The notes beneath the pieces are model-generated. The model did no database searches. It was not told where the DNA came from and saw only the letters and a program-made list of their open reading frames with translations. Of a stretch of 64,000 nt of DNA, positions 30,293 to 46,701 are shown piece after piece. The translations under genes and the position numbers were made by a program. Positions within the stretch are counted from its first letter, which is position 1. Every line of letters starts with the position of its first letter. The DNA is from Fidelibacterota bacterium (GTDB lineage: Bacteria > Fidelibacterota > Marinisomatia > SCGC-AAA003-L08 > JACNLC01): assembly GCA_014381725.1 (NCBI GenBank), contig JACNLC010000045.1, forward strand, positions 1 through 64,000. The letters are read 5' to 3'.

Positions 30293-30712
30293 CTATTCCA
30301 TACATAGTTCTATCAACACTCCATTTGTTGATTTAGGATGCAGAAATGCAATAAATAATCCTTCTGCACCTTTTCGTGGAGTTTCATCAATCAAACGAAC
30401 TCCGTTAGACTTTAGATAAGCCAAAGCGGAATGAATATCGTCAACTTTAAAAGCAATGTGGTGGATTCCCTCTCCCCTTTTGTTGAGAAATTTAGCAATA
30501 GGAGAAACATCAGAAACCGATTGAAGCAATTCTACTTTTCCATTTCCTGTGTCGTAGATATCAGTTAGAACTTTTTGCTCTTTTATTTCTTCAGTTGAAG
30601 AATGGTTGATTCCCAACAACTGTCCAAATAGATTTGCTGGATCATTTAAATCGTTGACTGCAATAGCAATATGCTCTATTGATAAGATTTTAAATGGTAT
30701 TTTATGTGACAT
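30293..30712 (-). CDS. mce: Methylmalonyl-CoA epimerase / glyoxalase-fold protein
   Basis: 139 residues from the ATG at 30712 (GAGG four bases upstream; an ATG six codons earlier is less likely). The vicinal-oxygen-chelate fold is clear: 'IEHIAIAVNDLNDPANLFGQ', 'KVELLQSV', 'GIHHIAFKVDDIHSALAYL', 'NGVLIELC'. These supply the metal-binding His/Glu set of methylmalonyl-CoA epimerases. The assignment is supported by meaB, the methylmalonyl-CoA mutase chaperone, five genes upstream. The mutase itself is not in the window. It probably serves propionyl-CoA/succinyl-CoA interconversion. Confidence 0.87.
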   Translation of the reverse strand: MSHKIPFKILSIEHIAIAVNDLNDPANLFGQLLGINHSSTEEIKEQKVLTDIYDTGNGKVELLQSVSDVSPIAKFLNKRGEGIHHIAFKVDDIHSALAYLKSNGVRLIDETPRKGAEGLFIAFLHPKSTNGVLIELCME

Positions 30713-30746
30713 ATATCCTCTTTCTCTCAATAAAAATTAACCACGA

Positions 30747-32088: not shown

Positions 32089-32971
32089 TTTCTATCCCAA
32101 TCAATCCTTTGAGATATGAATCCATATCAAATGGTACTAGGTCATCCACTTGTTCGCCAACGCCAATATAATAGACAGGTAAATTTAGTTCCAGCATTAT
32201 AGGAACAGCAATTCCACCTCGTGCAGTTCCATCCATTTTAGTCAGAATGACACCATCTATTGGTAGATATTTATTAAATTCGCGTGCTTGCTGAATTCCG
32301 TTTTGTCCTGTGTTAGCATCAATAGTTATCAATACATCAACTTCATCGGTCATTTTTCTAACGACTCGATTTATCTTCTCAAGCTCTTTCATTAAATTTA
32401 GTGATGTATGCAATCTACCTGCAGTATCAACTATGATTCTATCCACATTTTTGGATAAACCTGAGTTTACACCATCAAACGCAACTGCTGCAGGATCACT
32501 AGTTCCCTCGTTTGCAACTAATTGGACTTTTAATCGTTTAGACCATTCGCGAATCTGTTCAACTGCGGCAGCACGGTAAGTATCTCCTGCAACTAACAAA
32601 ACTGATTCACCGTCTTTGGAAAATTCACCTGCTAGTTTTGCTGCTGATGTGGTTTTTCCCGTGCCATTAATTCCAACTAATAGAATCGTTTTTCTAAGGG
32701 GTTTTGTTTGAATTTTCCCGTTAAGAAGCAAGTCCATTGAATTTAGAAATCGTTCTTCCCAAGCCAAATTTTTATCATCAGATTTTGACAGAGAATCGAC
32801 GATATTATCCACAACTTCCCAGCCCAAATCTGCTTGTAGTAATGCTTCTTCTAGTTTTTCTAAATCATCTGCCGAAAGATGTTTCTTACCGGAAATTCCT
32901 GTAAACATATTCGCAATTTTGGTTCTTGTCTTTTTGAGCCCAGAATAAGTCTTTTTGAAAAATTTGAACAT
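32081..32971 (-). CDS. ftsY: Signal recognition particle receptor
   Basis: 296 residues: the NG core with only a short basic N-terminal tail, without the long acidic A domain of E. coli FtsY. GTPase motifs: 'LVGINGTGKTTSAAKLAG' (P-loop 100-107), 'DTYRAAAVEQ', 'VDTAGRLHTS' and 'LTKMDGTARGG'. It docks SRP-ribosome complexes at the membrane. It overlaps pgsA (TAATG) upstream and rimO downstream. Confidence 0.95.
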   Translation of the reverse strand: MFKFFKKTYSGLKKTRTKIANMFTGISGKKHLSADDLEKLEEALLQADLGWEVVDNIVDSLSKSDDKNLAWEERFLNSMDLLLNGKIQTKPLRKTILLVGINGTGKTTSAAKLAGEFSKDGESVLLVAGDTYRAAAVEQIREWSKRLKVQLVANEGTSDPAAVAFDGVNSGLSKNVDRIIVDTAGRLHTSLNLMKELEKINRVVRKMTDEVDVLITIDANTGQNGIQQAREFNKYLPIDGVILTKMDGTARGGIAVPIMLELNLPVYYIGVGEQVDDLVPFDMDSYLKGLIGIENE

Positions 32972-33582
32972 TATATATTATGCTTCCCGAAATATTGAAA
33001 ATATCTTTTCATGTAGTAGTAAGTGCTAATTCCCATCAAAACTAACGAAACTGCGTATAACAATTCTTGCATAATTCCTATAAATTTTGGAAAAATACTC
33101 GGTTCAATTAGAATATACATCATCATCATCAAAGTTGTAGAAACTATGAAAAACTTCCCTGTCCAGTTTGCCTGAAACACTTCACTACCTTTGCGCATTA
33201 GATAAATTCCAGTTACACCAATAATAATATCACGGATAGCTAATAATCCGAAAAATATAGAAAAACGAATTGGATAGAGATAAATCAGATAAATTGCAAC
33301 AACTAGCAAACATATCTTATCTGCAACTGGGTCAATTATTTTACCGAATTTTGTGACTTCTCCAGCTTTTCTTGCAACAAAACCATCTATCATATCTGAC
33401 AAAATAATCAACACGAAATAAACTAATATTTGTGTCCAATTCTTCTGCTCTTGGTATAATGCAATGGTAAGCGGGATTGCCATAAATATCCGGCTGATAC
33501 TGATCAGATTTGCAAGCGTCAATATTCTATCTTCTCGGGTTTGTAATCTCTTTCGTAATATTTTCTTTTTCGATTGATTCAT
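32971..33582 (-). CDS. pgsA: CDP-alcohol phosphatidyltransferase, probably phosphatidylglycerophosphate synthase
   Basis: 203 residues, several membrane helices. The CDP-alcohol phosphotransferase signature is complete: Asp63, Asp66-Gly67, Ala70-Arg71, Gly80, Asp84 and Asp88 ('SDMIDGFVARKAGEVTKFG'). Opening with 'LANLISISRIFMAIPLTIAL' and its length fit PgsA, which makes phosphatidylglycerophosphate from CDP-diacylglycerol and glycerol-3-phosphate. The family is certain; the acceptor alcohol is inferred. It lies two bases from the polyprenyl synthase gene and overlaps ftsY. Confidence 0.9.
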   Translation of the reverse strand: MNQSKKKILRKRLQTREDRILTLANLISISRIFMAIPLTIALYQEQKNWTQILVYFVLIILSDMIDGFVARKAGEVTKFGKIIDPVADKICLLVVAIYLIYLYPIRFSIFFGLLAIRDIIIGVTGIYLMRKGSEVFQANWTGKFFIVSTTLMMMMYILIEPSIFPKFIGIMQELLYAVSLVLMGISTYYYMKRYFQYFGKHNI

Positions 33583-33584
33583 TA

Positions 33585-34574
33585 TTAGTGGTTCCGTTGA
33601 ATATTAAAATCTAAAATTTCCAACAAAGACGATTTATATTCAGAAGACGGAAAAATATTAAGTTCTGTTTTAGCTTGCTCGGTGATTTCGTTCAACTTTT
33701 GCTCAGTATATTCTATTCCACCTTCGGAAATAATCACTTCTCGTATTTTATCCAAATCACTTTTCCGAGCATATTTCTTTATCATTCGTTTCAATTTTCT
33801 TTGTTCAAATGAAGATAATGAAGAAAACAGATGAATTAATGGTAGAGTTAGCATATTTTTCTTAACATCAAATCCAAGTGGTTTGCCGACTTGAGTTACA
33901 TTGCCTATAATGTCGAAAAGGTCGTCTTTAATTTGAAATGCAATTCCCAATTTTTCCCCAAAACTTCGCAAAGCTGAACGAAGTTTCTCATCTTTAGTAA
34001 CTGTTATCGCTCCAACCTCACACGATGCTGCAAATAATGAAGCTGTTTTATCAGATACCATTTTAAAGTAAATGTCTTCGGTAATATCCTTTTTAATGGC
34101 TTTCTCAATTTGCAATATCTCACCTTGACTCAATCTCTCAGCAGTTTCTGATAAAACTTTAAGAGCATCAAAATCTTTTAAATGAACCATATTGGTTAGT
34201 GCTTTGGAAAACATATAATCACCAACTAAAATCGCTATTTTATTTTTCCACACTCGCTTTACCGAAGGCCAACCTCGTCGAGTATCTGCACTATCAACCA
34301 CATCATCGTGGATAAGAGTTGCTGTATGAATCATCTCTATAAGTGCAGATGCACGATAAGTTAACTCGTTTGCTTCTCCGCACATTCTAGCTGATAACAG
34401 AGCTAATCTCGGACGCAACTGCTTCCCTTTTTGACGAGAAATATATTTGATAACAGTATTTATTAATTTTACATCAGATGAAAGTGATTCATCAAAATAT
34501 TTGCTAAATTTCTGAATATCATCTTTAATCGGTATTGCAGATTTCTCTAATAATGCTTTGATATCTTTCATCAT
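33585..34574 (-). CDS. Long-chain all-trans polyprenyl diphosphate synthase
   Basis: 329 residues. First aspartate-rich motif DDVVD (90-94, in 'LIHDDVVDSADTRRG'), substrate motif 'KGKQLRPRLALLSAR', and second aspartate motif in 'IAFQIKDDLFDIIG'. The residue five before the first Asp is Ala85, small and not aromatic, which in this family favours long products (C40 or so) over FPP or GGPP. A quinone side chain is the likely use. Adjacent genes are pgsA and meaB with almost no spacing, an operon of otherwise unrelated functions. Confidence 0.9.
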   Translation of the reverse strand: MMKDIKALLEKSAIPIKDDIQKFSKYFDESLSSDVKLINTVIKYISRQKGKQLRPRLALLSARMCGEANELTYRASALIEMIHTATLIHDDVVDSADTRRGWPSVKRVWKNKIAILVGDYMFSKALTNMVHLKDFDALKVLSETAERLSQGEILQIEKAIKKDITEDIYFKMVSDKTASLFAASCEVGAITVTKDEKLRSALRSFGEKLGIAFQIKDDLFDIIGNVTQVGKPLGFDVKKNMLTLPLIHLFSSLSSFEQRKLKRMIKKYARKSDLDKIREVIISEGGIEYTEQKLNEITEQAKTELNIFPSSEYKSSLLEILDFNIQRNH

Positions 34575-35513
34575 CTAATCTTCCTGATGCAATTTTTGAA
34601 CAAGTTGATATGGTGATAGGCGTTTTTGTCTGTCTTTTGCGATTTCTTTGTCTAATATTTTTTGATTTTCGTCATTCCAAAATTCTAATTCAAATTTAGA
34701 AACTATGAGTTCTTTAATTTTACGAATATATCTTTGTTTTAGTTTCCGATGATGATGGCCAGTTGAAATGATATGTTTTCTATGTTCTTCAGATGCTTGG
34801 ACTAATTCGTCAATTCCATCGTTTTGTATGGCAATTGTTTTTACAACTTTTGGCTTCCAAACATCTGGATTATTTGGTAATACTGATAACAAATTTTTCA
34901 GTGTAATTGCTAACTTATTTGCACCTTCTCTGTCAGCTTTGTTGATCACGAACACATCTGCTATCTCCATTAAACCTGCTTTCATCATTTGGATTTCATC
35001 ACCTGATTCTGGAACCAAAACTACAAAAACAGTATCAGTTGCTTGAATCACATCCAATTCGACTTGTCCAACTCCAACAGTTTCAAAAAGAATAACATCA
35101 TATCCTGCGGCATCAAAAACATCACCTACTTCACGAGTGCTTTGAGCTAAACCTCCTTGTCCACCTCGACTCGCCATACTACGGATAAATACTCCTGCAT
35201 CTTTATGGTGATTTAACATTCGGATTCTATCACCCAACAATGCACCGCCGGTAAATGGACTGCTTGGGTCAACACCAATTACTGCAACGGTTTTATTTTG
35301 GTTTCTAAATGATTTTATTATTTTATCCGTTAGAGAACTTTTTCCTGAACCTGGTGGCCCTGTAATTCCAATACGATATGCCTTCCCAGTAAATGGAAAT
35401 ATTGCTGACAGAATTTCTCTACTAACTTCATTTTCACTTTCAATTATTGAAATAGCTCTAGCAATAGATATTCGCTCTCTTGATTGAATTCCTTTTATTA
35501 AATCACTGGTCAT
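34575..35513 (-). CDS. meaB: Methylmalonyl-CoA mutase-associated GTPase
   Basis: 312 residues. 'GITGPPGSGKSSLTDKI' is the P-loop, then 'VDPSSPFTGGALLGDRIRM', the MeaB/ArgK signature, 'FETVGVGQVELDV' and 'INKADREGANK'. MeaB guards and reloads the B12-dependent methylmalonyl-CoA mutase. With the epimerase at 30.3 kb it implies a functional methylmalonyl pathway whose mutase lies outside the window. Its end abuts the polyprenyl synthase start. Confidence 0.94.
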   Translation of the reverse strand: MTSDLIKGIQSRERISIARAISIIESENEVSREILSAIFPFTGKAYRIGITGPPGSGKSSLTDKIIKSFRNQNKTVAVIGVDPSSPFTGGALLGDRIRMLNHHKDAGVFIRSMASRGGQGGLAQSTREVGDVFDAAGYDVILFETVGVGQVELDVIQATDTVFVVLVPESGDEIQMMKAGLMEIADVFVINKADREGANKLAITLKNLLSVLPNNPDVWKPKVVKTIAIQNDGIDELVQASEEHRKHIISTGHHHRKLKQRYIRKIKELIVSKFELEFWNDENQKILDKEIAKDRQKRLSPYQLVQKLHQED

Positions 35514-42981: not shown

Positions 42982-44160
42982 TCAAATTCCAGTAAACACT
43001 TTCACCACATCCAAAATTAATGATGGTTTTTTGGAAACCGCCGCTTTAAATATTTTGGTTAAAGTTCGATTACCAACGGGAATTTTCGCTATTTTTTCAG
43101 CAATACCGTTAAGGTCAGCATCGGAAAATTCGGAAATAGTTTCTTTTATTCTATAAAATCTTTTGTGATTATCGCCAAAAGCTTTCTTTACTTCTTTAGC
43201 ATATTTCTGAAGTTGTTCCGCCGAAGTATCATTTTTCTTGATTGATTCGCTGGCTACTTGTCCTGCAATCCAACCTGATTTCATAGCAGATATAATTCCA
43301 CCTCCGGTCATTGGATTCACAAAATGTGCGGCATCTCCAATCAACATCAAATTATCAGTTATGGGATTTTTCATAGGTTTAGCACACGGAACTCCACCAC
43401 AAACAGTTGTTAGAATTGAAGCGTTAGGATATTCTCTGTCCATAAATTCATCTAACCATTTTTTGGCAGATTTCTGACCATTGAATTTGCCACTAATTCC
43501 AAGTCCGATATTCGCCATACCATTTCCTTTTGGGAATACCCATAAATATCCTCCTGGAGAATATGTTTCGCCCATGTAAAAATCAATTCTGTTTGGATGA
43601 ACATCAACATTGGCAACTGTGTATTGAACACAGGATTCAATATCTTTCATTTTTAACTGCGTTCTAAGTCCAGCCCATCTACCAATACGAGATTCTACTC
43701 CATCAGCACCAATAACTAGTTTTGCACGAATATCTTTTTCTTCTCCAAAATGTTCGACTTTTACACCACAGATTTTATTGTTCTCGACAATTAAATCACT
43801 AACATACGCTTTGGTATATATTTCTGTACCTTTGTCGGATGCAATTTGTGCTAAATCGTAATCAAATATTCGCCTGTTTAAAATAAATCCTTGTTGTGAT
43901 GTTAAATGAGCATCAATTTTTGTTCCATTTGGAGATATTAATCTAAACTCTGATATTTTAGTAGCAATCCACGAATCTCTTGGCTCTACGAATTGACGAA
44001 GACCGCCCTCACTAACTGCCTCCCCACATCTGACAGGATAACCAATATCTCTATCCTTTTCGAGAATGCAAACGCTAACACTGGATTCTGCAATCATTTT
44101 ACCAGCAATTGAACCAGCAGGACCACCACCTACAATTATAACATCATAATTAGTTTTCAT
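42982..44160 (-). CDS. Geranylgeranyl-reductase-family flavoprotein
   Basis: 392 residues. N-terminal FAD-binding 'DVIIVGGGPAGSIAGKM' (6-22), the family hallmark 'GYPVRCGEAVSEGGL' (CGE 45-47), and the second FAD motif 'LMLIGDAAHFVNPMTGGGII'. Members reduce double bonds of geranylgeranyl chains: in archaeal ether lipids, in chlorophyll, or in menaquinone side chains (MenJ). The start overlaps the end of a ferredoxin gene by 11 bases, so the electron donor is probably made with it. A UbiA prenyltransferase follows upstream in the same transcript. Which isoprenoid is reduced cannot be read from sequence. Confidence 0.88.
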   Translation of the reverse strand: MKTNYDVIIVGGGPAGSIAGKMIAESSVSVCILEKDRDIGYPVRCGEAVSEGGLRQFVEPRDSWIATKISEFRLISPNGTKIDAHLTSQQGFILNRRIFDYDLAQIASDKGTEIYTKAYVSDLIVENNKICGVKVEHFGEEKDIRAKLVIGADGVESRIGRWAGLRTQLKMKDIESCVQYTVANVDVHPNRIDFYMGETYSPGGYLWVFPKGNGMANIGLGISGKFNGQKSAKKWLDEFMDREYPNASILTTVCGGVPCAKPMKNPITDNLMLIGDAAHFVNPMTGGGIISAMKSGWIAGQVASESIKKNDTSAEQLQKYAKEVKKAFGDNHKRFYRIKETISEFSDADLNGIAEKIAKIPVGNRTLTKIFKAAVSKKPSLILDVVKVFTGI

Positions 44161-44329
44161 CTACAACCTCCAATACTTCGATTGGACAAATTTCTACACA
44201 GAGTTTACAATCTGTGCATATTTCGTTGTTTATTGAAATTGATGCTTCTTTTAATTCGATGCAGTCCACAGGACAAACAGAAACACAAGTCCCACAAAAA
44301 TCACATTTATTTTTTTTTATGTTTATCAT
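44150..44329 (-). CDS. 2[4Fe-4S] ferredoxin, small gene
   Basis: A 59-residue ferredoxin beginning MINIKKNKCDFCGTCVSVCP. The two cluster motifs are complete: Cys9-x2-Cys12-x2-Cys15-x3-Cys19-Pro and Cys38-x2-Cys41-x2-Cys44-x3-Cys48-Pro. It sits between the UbiA gene (stop 19 bases upstream of its start) and the reductase gene, which it overlaps by 11 bases. In Methanosarcina a ferredoxin gene next to geranylgeranyl reductase is known to supply electrons for full saturation, and the same arrangement here suggests the same job. No strong Shine-Dalgarno is visible; translation may couple to ubiA. Confidence 0.9.
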   Translation of the reverse strand: MINIKKNKCDFCGTCVSVCPVDCIELKEASISINNEICTDCKLCVEICPIEVLEVVDEN

Positions 44330-44348
44330 ATTATTTTTATTGTTGTAT

Positions 44349-45350
44349 CTAACCTTCTACTACAAAAGTAGGGTAATGCAAATCAAATCTATGCCAATAA
44401 TAGTATTTACTCAAATAAAACACAATAAATACCGCTGGAAATAACCACGGATAAACAACCATCACAAAAAATGATAGTAAGAAAATAGAATAGCGAATTG
44501 TTCTAAGAACATCACTTTCTTTTCTTCTGAATATAGTTACAATGTAAAATGGTAGTGCTACAATCGTAGCTGTTGAACTAATTGGATCACTCAGTTTTAA
44601 CCCGACAACAAATGCGATTAAAACCAAAATAGTTGCTAATACAATTGTTGGAAGAAATCCGAATTTCACTGCAAATGTAGTCGCATTAGTTTCAGAATCC
44701 CCTTTTCTATCTGGGATTGTGGTCAATAGCGATACAGCAATAAAACACAAGATATACGGAGATAGCGAAGTGAATAAGTCCAAATTGATTGATGAGAAAA
44801 ATCCAATGCCTTCTTCCGAAAACGCCATAACCCATCCAGCAAAATAGAGAAGGAATCCTGCTATCGCATTGATTACAGCACCAATAATCGGTTTCTTTTT
44901 GGCTTCGAGTGGTTTCAGATTGTATAAAACTCCCCAAAATAAAAATAATAACAAACCTATTAGTAGAATTCCAAAGTTCACAATTATTAAAGATAATATT
45001 CCAATGCCCAACGAAATTTTCATTATCAGTTCAGCTTTTGTTATTTTAATCTTATTTCCAACAATAAATAATTTTTTATTGACATTGTCGCTATCTACAT
45101 CTTTAATCTGATTTAAAATAAATGTACTCGCAGAAATAAATGAAAATCCAATAAACAGAATAAACACTTTCACATCAAATGCAACCAACCAAATCGGATA
45201 TTCAGTAAATTGCATTTTTGCCATTGCCATTCCAACGACAATCATCACCCAAACCGGAAAAAATAGCGTTGGTCTTAACAAAAATAATATATCAAATACC
45301 GGTACTATTTTTCTGTGGATCGGATTATTTTTCAAAAACTTTTTTATCAT
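44349..45350 (-). CDS. UbiA-superfamily prenyltransferase
   Basis: 333 residues with about nine membrane helices. First aspartate motif 'NQIKDVDSDNVNKK' (Asp84 and Asp88), second 'TIPDRKGDSETNATTFAVKF' (Asp214 and Asp218). These bind the prenyl diphosphate through Mg2+. The ATG at 45350 has AGAGGA upstream; a longer reading would lie deeper inside purF. Relatives include menaquinone MenA, chlorophyll synthase and archaeal digeranylgeranylglyceryl-phosphate synthase. The acceptor is not identifiable by eye. The first motif lacks the RP..R that often follows it. Its neighbours (ferredoxin, geranylgeranyl reductase) favour a lipid or quinone whose prenyl chain is later saturated. Confidence 0.87.
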   Translation of the reverse strand: MIKKFLKNNPIHRKIVPVFDILFLLRPTLFFPVWVMIVVGMAMAKMQFTEYPIWLVAFDVKVFILFIGFSFISASTFILNQIKDVDSDNVNKKLFIVGNKIKITKAELIMKISLGIGILSLIIVNFGILLIGLLLFLFWGVLYNLKPLEAKKKPIIGAVINAIAGFLLYFAGWVMAFSEEGIGFFSSINLDLFTSLSPYILCFIAVSLLTTIPDRKGDSETNATTFAVKFGFLPTIVLATILVLIAFVVGLKLSDPISSTATIVALPFYIVTIFRRKESDVLRTIRYSIFLLSFFVMVVYPWLFPAVFIVFYLSKYYYWHRFDLHYPTFVVEG

Positions 45351-46701
45351 TTTGTCCTCTAATTTTAATTGGATAGCTCCCAGAAAAACACGCCGTACAG
45401 AAATTATCTCCGTCAATACTCATTGATCTCAACAATCCCTCAAGGGATAGGTATTGAAGGGTATCTACATCAATAACTTTTTTAATATCTTCAAGCTCGC
45501 GACCATTTGCTACTAATTCTTCTTTGGTTGGAAAATCCATTCCATAAAAACAAGGATATCGAACAGGTGGTGAGCTTATTCGGACATGAACCTTTTTCAC
45601 ACCACCATCACGAAGAAGTTTTGCGAGCTTTTTTAGAGTAGTTCCACGGACTATGGAATCATCCACAATTACCACTTCCCTATCGTTGAGCACTCCTTTA
45701 ACTGTATTGAATTTCAATCTAACAGATAAGTCACGAAGTTTCTGTGAAGGAAATATAAATGTCCTCCCCACATAATGATTTCGGATTAGACCGATATCAT
45801 ATTTTGTATCCGACCGACGAGAATATCCCAATGCACAAGTATTGCTTGAGTCTGGAACAGAAATCACAATATCTGCAGTATCAATACTACTTTCTTCTGC
45901 TAACACTTTCCCAAATTTCCGCCGGAGTTTATCCACATTTTCTCCAAATATTTTAGAATCCGGGCGAGAAAAGTAGATATATTCAAATATACAATGCTTC
46001 GTTGGTTTCTTCTCGGTAAATTGTTTTGAACGCAACCCGTTTTTGTCAATTATTACCATTTCACCAGGTTCTATATCGCGTATAAAATAAGCACCGAGTA
46101 AATCCAAAGCACAAGTTTCTGATGCTAAAATTGTAGTCTCTCCGAGTTTTCCCAAACACAAAGGTCTTATTCCGTGTGGATCTCTTGCAGCAATTAGTTC
46201 ATTTTCAGTAATCACGAGTAATGAATAAGCACCTTCAATTTTCTGAAGTGCTTTTTCTAATCGTACATCAACCGTTTCGCCTTCTTCGTGAGCCATAAGA
46301 TGAATTATAATCTCTGTATCGGTAGTAGTTTGGAAAATTGCTCCGTTTTTTTGAAGTTCCTTCCTAATCTCAGCAATATTCACTAAGTTACCATTATGAG
46401 CAATTGAAATCGTGGAATCATCAATATTGAACATTAACGGACCAACATTTTTGGGGTCGTCATTACCAGTAGTTGAATATCTTGTATGTCCAATTGCACA
46501 ATCACCGGGAAGTTCATTAAATATGTCGTGATTATGAAATACATCAGACACCAATCCAAGCCCCATATGGCGATGGAGGCTACCGTCATTTGAGGAGACA
46601 ATTCCAGCACCCTCTTGACCACGATGTTGTTGGGCATATAAGCCCATATAAGTCAATGTTGATGCTTCAGGATTTCCAAATATCCCCATTATACCGCACA
46701 T
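45325..46701 (-). CDS. purF: Amidophosphoribosyltransferase
   Basis: 458 residues. It begins MCGIMGIFG, so the nucleophile Cys2 becomes N-terminal after Met removal without a propeptide. The class II glutaminase domain ('QHRGQEGAGIVS', 'GHTRYSTTG') is followed by the PRTase motif 'VVIVDDSIVRGTTLKKLAKL'. Cysteines in 'KHCIFEYIYFSRP', 'RYPCFYGMDFP' and 'NFCTACFSGSYP' correspond to the [4Fe-4S] ligands of the Bacillus-type enzyme. It catalyses the first step of purine synthesis. Its 3' end overlaps the ubiA start by 26 bases. Confidence 0.96.
   Translation of the reverse strand: MCGIMGIFGNPEASTLTYMGLYAQQHRGQEGAGIVSSNDGSLHRHMGLGLVSDVFHNHDIFNELPGDCAIGHTRYSTTGNDDPKNVGPLMFNIDDSTISIAHNGNLVNIAEIRKELQKNGAIFQTTTDTEIIIHLMAHEEGETVDVRLEKALQKIEGAYSLLVITENELIAARDPHGIRPLCLGKLGETTILASETCALDLLGAYFIRDIEPGEMVIIDKNGLRSKQFTEKKPTKHCIFEYIYFSRPDSKIFGENVDKLRRKFGKVLAEESSIDTADIVISVPDSSNTCALGYSRRSDTKYDIGLIRNHYVGRTFIFPSQKLRDLSVRLKFNTVKGVLNDREVVIVDDSIVRGTTLKKLAKLLRDGGVKKVHVRISSPPVRYPCFYGMDFPTKEELVANGRELEDIKKVIDVDTLQYLSLEGLLRSMSIDGDNFCTACFSGSYPIKIRGQNDKKVFEK

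Follow-up and report, generated by a model that had tools for sequence, protein, structure and literature searches.

An orphan UbiA-family membrane protein beside a ferredoxin and an archaeal-type geranylgeranyl reductase, and the likely repeated loss of its active site in Neomarinimicrobiota

Gene order at the locus and in relatives

The window, the whole 64,000-nt stretch of DNA that we analysed, contains three closely packed genes on its minus strand. The first (44349–45350, ATG at 45350) encodes a 333-aa integral membrane protein of the UbiA family (PF01040, 71.5 bits), which we call UbiA4. It carries both aspartate motifs of the family, NQIKDVDSD at residues 80–88 (45087–45113, minus strand) and DRKGD at residues 214–218 (44697–44711, minus strand), and a C-terminal family signature, YYYWHRFDLHYPTF, at residues 316–329 (44364–44405, minus strand). 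Within UbiA4 sequence set A3, N80, D84, D214 and D218 are invariant and D88 is conserved in at least 90% of members. The second gene (44150–44329) encodes a 59-aa 2[4Fe-4S] ferredoxin with a Fer4 match and two CxxCxxCxxxCP motifs, the presumed electron donor of the third gene product, a 392-aa geranylgeranyl reductase (GGR) of the archaeal DGGGP-lipid-reductase type (42982–44160; GGR_cat, 94.2 bits). Its residues C45-G46-E47 (44020–44028, minus strand) occupy the position of the catalytic cysteine of archaeal GGRs, as judged from the sequence and an alignment with 3oz2. The GGR and ferredoxin frames overlap by 11 nt, and the UbiA4 frame overlaps by 26 nt the end of purF, its upstream neighbour (45325–46701, minus strand). 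A preliminary description had claimed a compact unit of a UbiA protein with both aspartate motifs, a 59-residue ferredoxin and a CGE-type flavoprotein; the open reading frames, their strand, near-overlap and order, and all three protein assignments were confirmed. Conservation across relatives rules out chance or mis-called reading frames.

About 9 kb from the GGR lies a gene for a PgsA-like CDP-alcohol phosphatidyltransferase (32971–33582, minus strand), and next to it one for a trans-polyprenyl synthase of the long-chain type (33585–34574, minus strand), in which the alanine previously pointed out sits five residues before the first aspartate motif. A probable methylmalonyl-CoA epimerase (30293–30730, with a weak HPPD-family match) and a MeaB GTPase (34575–35513) are encoded near these two genes.

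The UbiA–ferredoxin–GGR order is kept in 29/29 other best-matching Neomarinimicrobiota relatives and in most of the named KSB1 and Calditrichota loci; the named loci also include UbiA4 homologs from one Zixibacteria bin and one Latescibacterota bin. Across the named loci, a GGR lies at most 3 kb downstream of UbiA4 in 58 of 67, and purF lies upstream in 58 of 67. At several KSB1 and Calditrichota loci the genes that come after the GGR are those for a CDP-alcohol phosphatidyltransferase, ftsY and rimO, and these three genes have the same order at 30.8–33.6 kb of the window. Within Neomarinimicrobiota we found three variant sites: the ferredoxin–GGR pair without UbiA, UbiA without GGR, and a short UbiA accompanied by a GGR of a second type (404–413 aa) but by no ferredoxin. 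UbiA4 is consequently not an obligate partner of GGR, as each occurs without the other. The earlier idea of a compact unit holds for the conserved order of the trio, but relatives with either part alone, and others whose UbiA lacks its motifs, show that the unit is not a self-contained pathway.

The second GGR type is deeply separate from the first and replaces the ferredoxin–GGR pair at the same site (L058, L065, L095, L096, L101 and others); it adjoins a short motif-less UbiA, and its MenJ and DGGGPL-reductase scores lie closer together. At the usual site, genomes of genus g83 (L048/L105 of G229, L109 of G223) have the ferredoxin–GGR pair but no UbiA, and some g83 genomes contain an additional UbiA4–ferredoxin–GGR cassette in a different neighbourhood, which suggests that the cassette moves as a unit. 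One genome, G174 (L145, L055/L093), has three UbiA4 homologs, namely two near-identical solo copies on separate contigs, for which duplicate contigs or mixed strains are possible, and a short homolog that forms a pair with a GGR of the second type. Two apparent UbiA-domain fusions of 628–634 aa (L228, L230) were rejected as artefacts, being long GC-rich open frames that run across purF.

The reductase and its pathway in the genome

The GGR is the sole one found in a search of the genome, and it passes the superfamily threshold of TIGR02032 (241.6 bits, cut-off 158.8). Its best PDB match is the digeranylgeranylglycerophospholipid reductase of Thermoplasma acidophilum (3OZ2, E = 4.1e-82), followed by the Sulfolobus GGR (E about 1e-31). 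Its NCBIfam scores are 290 bits for DGGPL_Thplmales, 150 for BchP-ChlP, 76 for ChlP and 64 for MenJ, and it falls below the equivalog cut-offs of the named archaeal reductases, by a wide margin (NF041160, 290.5 vs 780). Following the motif definitions of PMC10821996, it has the active-site cysteine of RCGE and the cavity motif PxxYxWxFP, here SPGGYLWVFP. The Methanosarcina GGR requires an upstream-encoded ferredoxin for saturation in E. coli (reviewed in PMC4244643). A lipid-reductase role for the ferredoxin–GGR pair, as the preliminary description had read it, is supported by likeness to this Methanosarcina pair and by the PDB and NCBIfam scores, which place the GGR with the archaeal lipid reductases.

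Which saturated prenyl lipid the pair would produce, an ether lipid or a quinone, can be weighed against the rest of the genome (2.18 Mb, 98% complete). The genome encodes one GGGP synthase (C70; TIGR01769, 193.2 bits, cut-off 161.55) and four UbiA-family proteins, which are a CtaB-like protein (L001), MenA (L002), a DGGGP synthase-like protein (L003, gene C74) and UbiA4. MenA scores over the TIGR00751 cut-off and lies between menC-like and menB-like frames, so the second MenA that had been sought exists. There are two trans-prenyl synthases; the one in the window has Ala at position −5 and the other (C28) has Phe, a difference that, under the known rule for chain length, points to long and short products, respectively. 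The C28 enzyme matches the IdsA and GGPP models with scores under their cut-offs. This short-chain-like synthase lies away from the window, where the earlier reading had expected one. A search for CarS gave no PF01864 match in the genome, and no G1P dehydrogenase was found there, PF13685 being matched by AroB alone. Because the genome has a GGGP synthase, a DGGGP synthase-like UbiA, a short-chain-like synthase and its own MenA, the ether-lipid reading of the ferredoxin–GGR pair has more in its favour than the quinone one. The archaeal type of the GGR points the same way; the missing CarS and G1P dehydrogenase count against it.

Co-occurrence across 245 genomes bears on the same choice. GGR is associated with GGGP synthase (phi = 0.57) and with L003-type UbiA (0.63), and less with MenA (0.19). 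These are raw values, uncorrected for phylogeny and compiled by hand from presence lists in which a gap in an incomplete genome scores as an absence. When the streamlined lineages are left out, they become 0.29, 0.26 and 0.17; much of the association comes from streamlined lineages that have none of these genes. GGR occurs without a detected GGGP synthase in 29 genomes, including all four of genus g6. The alternative, a MenJ-like role in which the ferredoxin–GGR pair and UbiA4 would produce or alter a partly saturated quinone, draws on the MenA and men locus of this genome and on the promiscuity of GGRs, of which the Archaeoglobus paralog AF_0648 reduces menaquinone (PMC10821996). We consider it unlikely: the scores of the GGR are much higher against archaeal lipid reductases than against MenJ, its association with MenA is weak, UbiA4 is rejected from the MenA clade (see below), and 80 of the genomes have a GGR and no match to MenA, the sole quinone route searched. 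By analogy, the most likely role of the ferredoxin–GGR pair is to saturate an isoprenoid lipid of archaeal type.

The UbiA4 clade and the loss of its active site

In a tree of UbiA-family proteins, L003 and its relatives join the DGGGP synthase of Methanocaldococcus jannaschii (support 98/96), whose structure 6M31 L003 matches with E = 1.7e-28. UbiA4 lies in a clade of its own (100/100) with KSB1, Calditrichota and other relatives. AU tests reject its placement within the MenA clade (p = 3.5e-5) and within the DGGGP synthase clade (p = 4.7e-6), and they single out no sister of the whole orphan clade (p = 0.43 for MenA, 0.22 for DGGGP synthase, 0.29 for ChlG). By its sequence, UbiA4 is neither MenA, which in this genome is L002 in the men locus, nor DGGGP synthase, the group that L003 joins, but belongs to a fourth, orphan UbiA clade. 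Of the two roles that the preliminary description had offered for it, that of DGGGP synthase of the unit is not supported, and a MenA-like one is unnecessary, since the genome encodes a MenA besides.

Profile comparisons place UbiA4 nearest to L003 (E = 2.4e-8), followed by MenA (5.5e-7), CtaB (8.8e-5) and E. coli UbiA (4.9e-4). With the UbiA4 sequence alone, phmmer found no match in the PDB; the best PDB match of the family profile is the M. jannaschii DGGGP synthase (E = 1.5e-16). A confident AF2 model (pLDDT 91.9) resembles DGGGP synthase, its closest fold, and the structures of archaeal UbiA homologs to much the same degree. The best NCBIfam match, homogentisate phytyltransferase (E = 6.5e-10), would fit an aromatic prenyltransferase, but its 38.8 bits compare with a cut-off of 226, and the search for 4-hydroxyphenylpyruvate dioxygenase in the genome returned a single 147-aa frame far under the cut-off; a tocopherol-like route was rejected for that reason, and we regard an aromatic substrate as very unlikely. 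With its complete motifs, the UbiA4 of the window is predicted to be, and probably is, a working prenyltransferase.

Many of its relatives have lost these motifs. In a non-random sample of 95 UbiA4 rows, 87 of them from Neomarinimicrobiota, both aspartate motifs are present in 39 (31 of the 87) and neither in 51, all from Neomarinimicrobiota (51/87); the remaining 5/95 have one motif by pattern, some by chance. The motif-less orthologs retain the fold and the C-terminal signature. Their homology extends beyond a profile that already contains them, because the window sequence alone finds many, including G166 at 36% identity over its full length. The motif-less L214 was modelled by AF2 as a UbiA fold with moderate confidence (pLDDT 84.3), from an alignment that also included intact relatives, and its best fold match is DGGGP synthase. 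For six motif-less proteins, Pfam gave no match. On the GGR tree the losses are scattered, requiring 12 changes by parsimony, 8 of them forced by well-supported branches; therefore, several separate losses of the aspartate motifs are likely. Between close motif-less pairs dN/dS is mostly 0.07–0.26, compared with 0.08–0.20 for intact pairs, and reaches 0.44 in genus g8. The values of 0.07–0.26 over several genera argue against motif-less UbiA4 being a pseudogene. In many relatives, UbiA4 is probably a non-catalytic membrane protein that is still under selection.

Streamlined genomes of family f16 (genera g40–42) have no detected GGR and keep a motif-less UbiA4 homolog; at the one locus read, L100 (G093), it lies at the same site, between sodium-symporter-like and DinG-like genes.

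A motif-less UbiA4 cassette is present in 20 genomes that we checked, and 19 of these have GGGP synthase, L003-type UbiA and GGR; therefore, UbiA4 catalysis is not required for the pathway. Likewise, 8 of 10 checked genomes with the ferredoxin–GGR pair and no UbiA4 at the site keep both GGGP synthase and L003-type UbiA. These counts, together with the grouping of L003 with the M. jannaschii enzyme and the exclusion of UbiA4 from that clade, make it quite unlikely that UbiA4 is the DGGGP synthase and L003 has another function, even though UbiA4 adjoins a lipid reductase and has DGGGP synthase as its best profile and closest fold match.

UbiA4 could instead be a membrane dock or lipid-presenting partner of the soluble GGR, with catalysis dispensable, comparable to the plant protein LIL3, which interacts with the GGR ChlP (PMC9066304). 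The tight, often overlapping order with ferredoxin–GGR across phyla and the loss of motifs while the cassette is kept under a dN/dS of about 0.07–0.26 would suit such a role. However, motif-less UbiA4 is also kept where no GGR adjoins it, and in some genomes in which no GGR was detected at all, and the ferredoxin–GGR pair occurs without UbiA4, which leaves docking a possible but doubtful function. Tentatively, then, the UbiA fold may have been repurposed several times in Neomarinimicrobiota as a catalytically dead, selected membrane protein, encoded next to the ferredoxin and GGR genes, that presents lipids or serves as a dock in an FCB-wide saturated isoprenoid lipid pathway.

Proposed pathway and comparison with known systems

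From the genes, their families and synteny, the tree placement and the motif loss under purifying selection, we infer the substrates, electron flow and products as follows. The ferredoxin would give low-potential electrons to the GGR, which would saturate the geranylgeranyl-type chains in a glycerol ether lipid of archaeal type. This lipid would be made elsewhere by the short-chain prenyl synthase (C28), the GGGP synthase (C70) and the DGGGP synthase-like UbiA (C74), with bacterial CDP-lipid and PgsA-type enzymes supplying the head group. UbiA4, here and in KSB1 and Calditrichota, would be catalytically complete and would most likely prenylate some other membrane-lipid acceptor; the motif-less UbiA4 of many Neomarinimicrobiota, with its metal- and diphosphate-binding aspartates gone, would have a non-catalytic membrane role. 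As a whole, this reading, in which the ferredoxin–GGR pair saturates an ether lipid built elsewhere and UbiA4 forms a separate clade, is our best explanation, with a probability of about 0.55.

An archaeal-type lipid pathway is of a known kind in FCB bacteria, which are reported to have one for ether lipids with GGGP and DGGGP synthases that function in E. coli (PMC7852524). The new part is the orphan UbiA and the repeated loss of its active site, of which we found no description in the open-licence papers searched. The candidate pathway would be extended to most of the sampled Neomarinimicrobiota (SAR406-type ocean bacteria) and would gain a ferredoxin–reductase step, so that mixed membranes in abundant marine bacteria become a question testable with a handful of genes. 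The orphan UbiA clade is unclassified and extends over several phyla; in one of them it has given rise to a membrane protein that lacks the motifs, is unannotated and matches no Pfam family.

The closest known pathway is that of Ca. Cloacimonetes (Villanueva et al., PMC7852524), which likewise has GGGP synthase, a DGGGP synthase-like UbiA, prenyl synthases and GGR, and in which CarS and G1P dehydrogenase are also missing. There, GGGP and DGGGP synthase genes are co-localised, whereas in our genome they are on different contigs, and the GGR is accompanied by a ferredoxin and an additional, orphan UbiA. The main text of that study mentions neither Marinimicrobia nor KSB1 nor Calditrichota. The Methanosarcina acetivorans GGR shares the upstream ferredoxin gene; in contrast, the present locus is bacterial and has a UbiA-family gene in front. 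The T. acidophilum reductase 3OZ2 is the closest solved relative by sequence and has RCGE in common with our GGR, which is far under the equivalog cut-off. MenA and UbiA4 share the UbiA superfamily and the pattern D-x3-D then T-x-A-V-x-x-G, although they fall into separate clades and a MenA is encoded elsewhere in the genome. The M. jannaschii DGGGP synthase (6M31, 7BPU) shares the UbiA fold and both aspartate motifs with UbiA4, which differs in belonging to another clade and in its C-terminal YYxxRFxxxYPxF signature.
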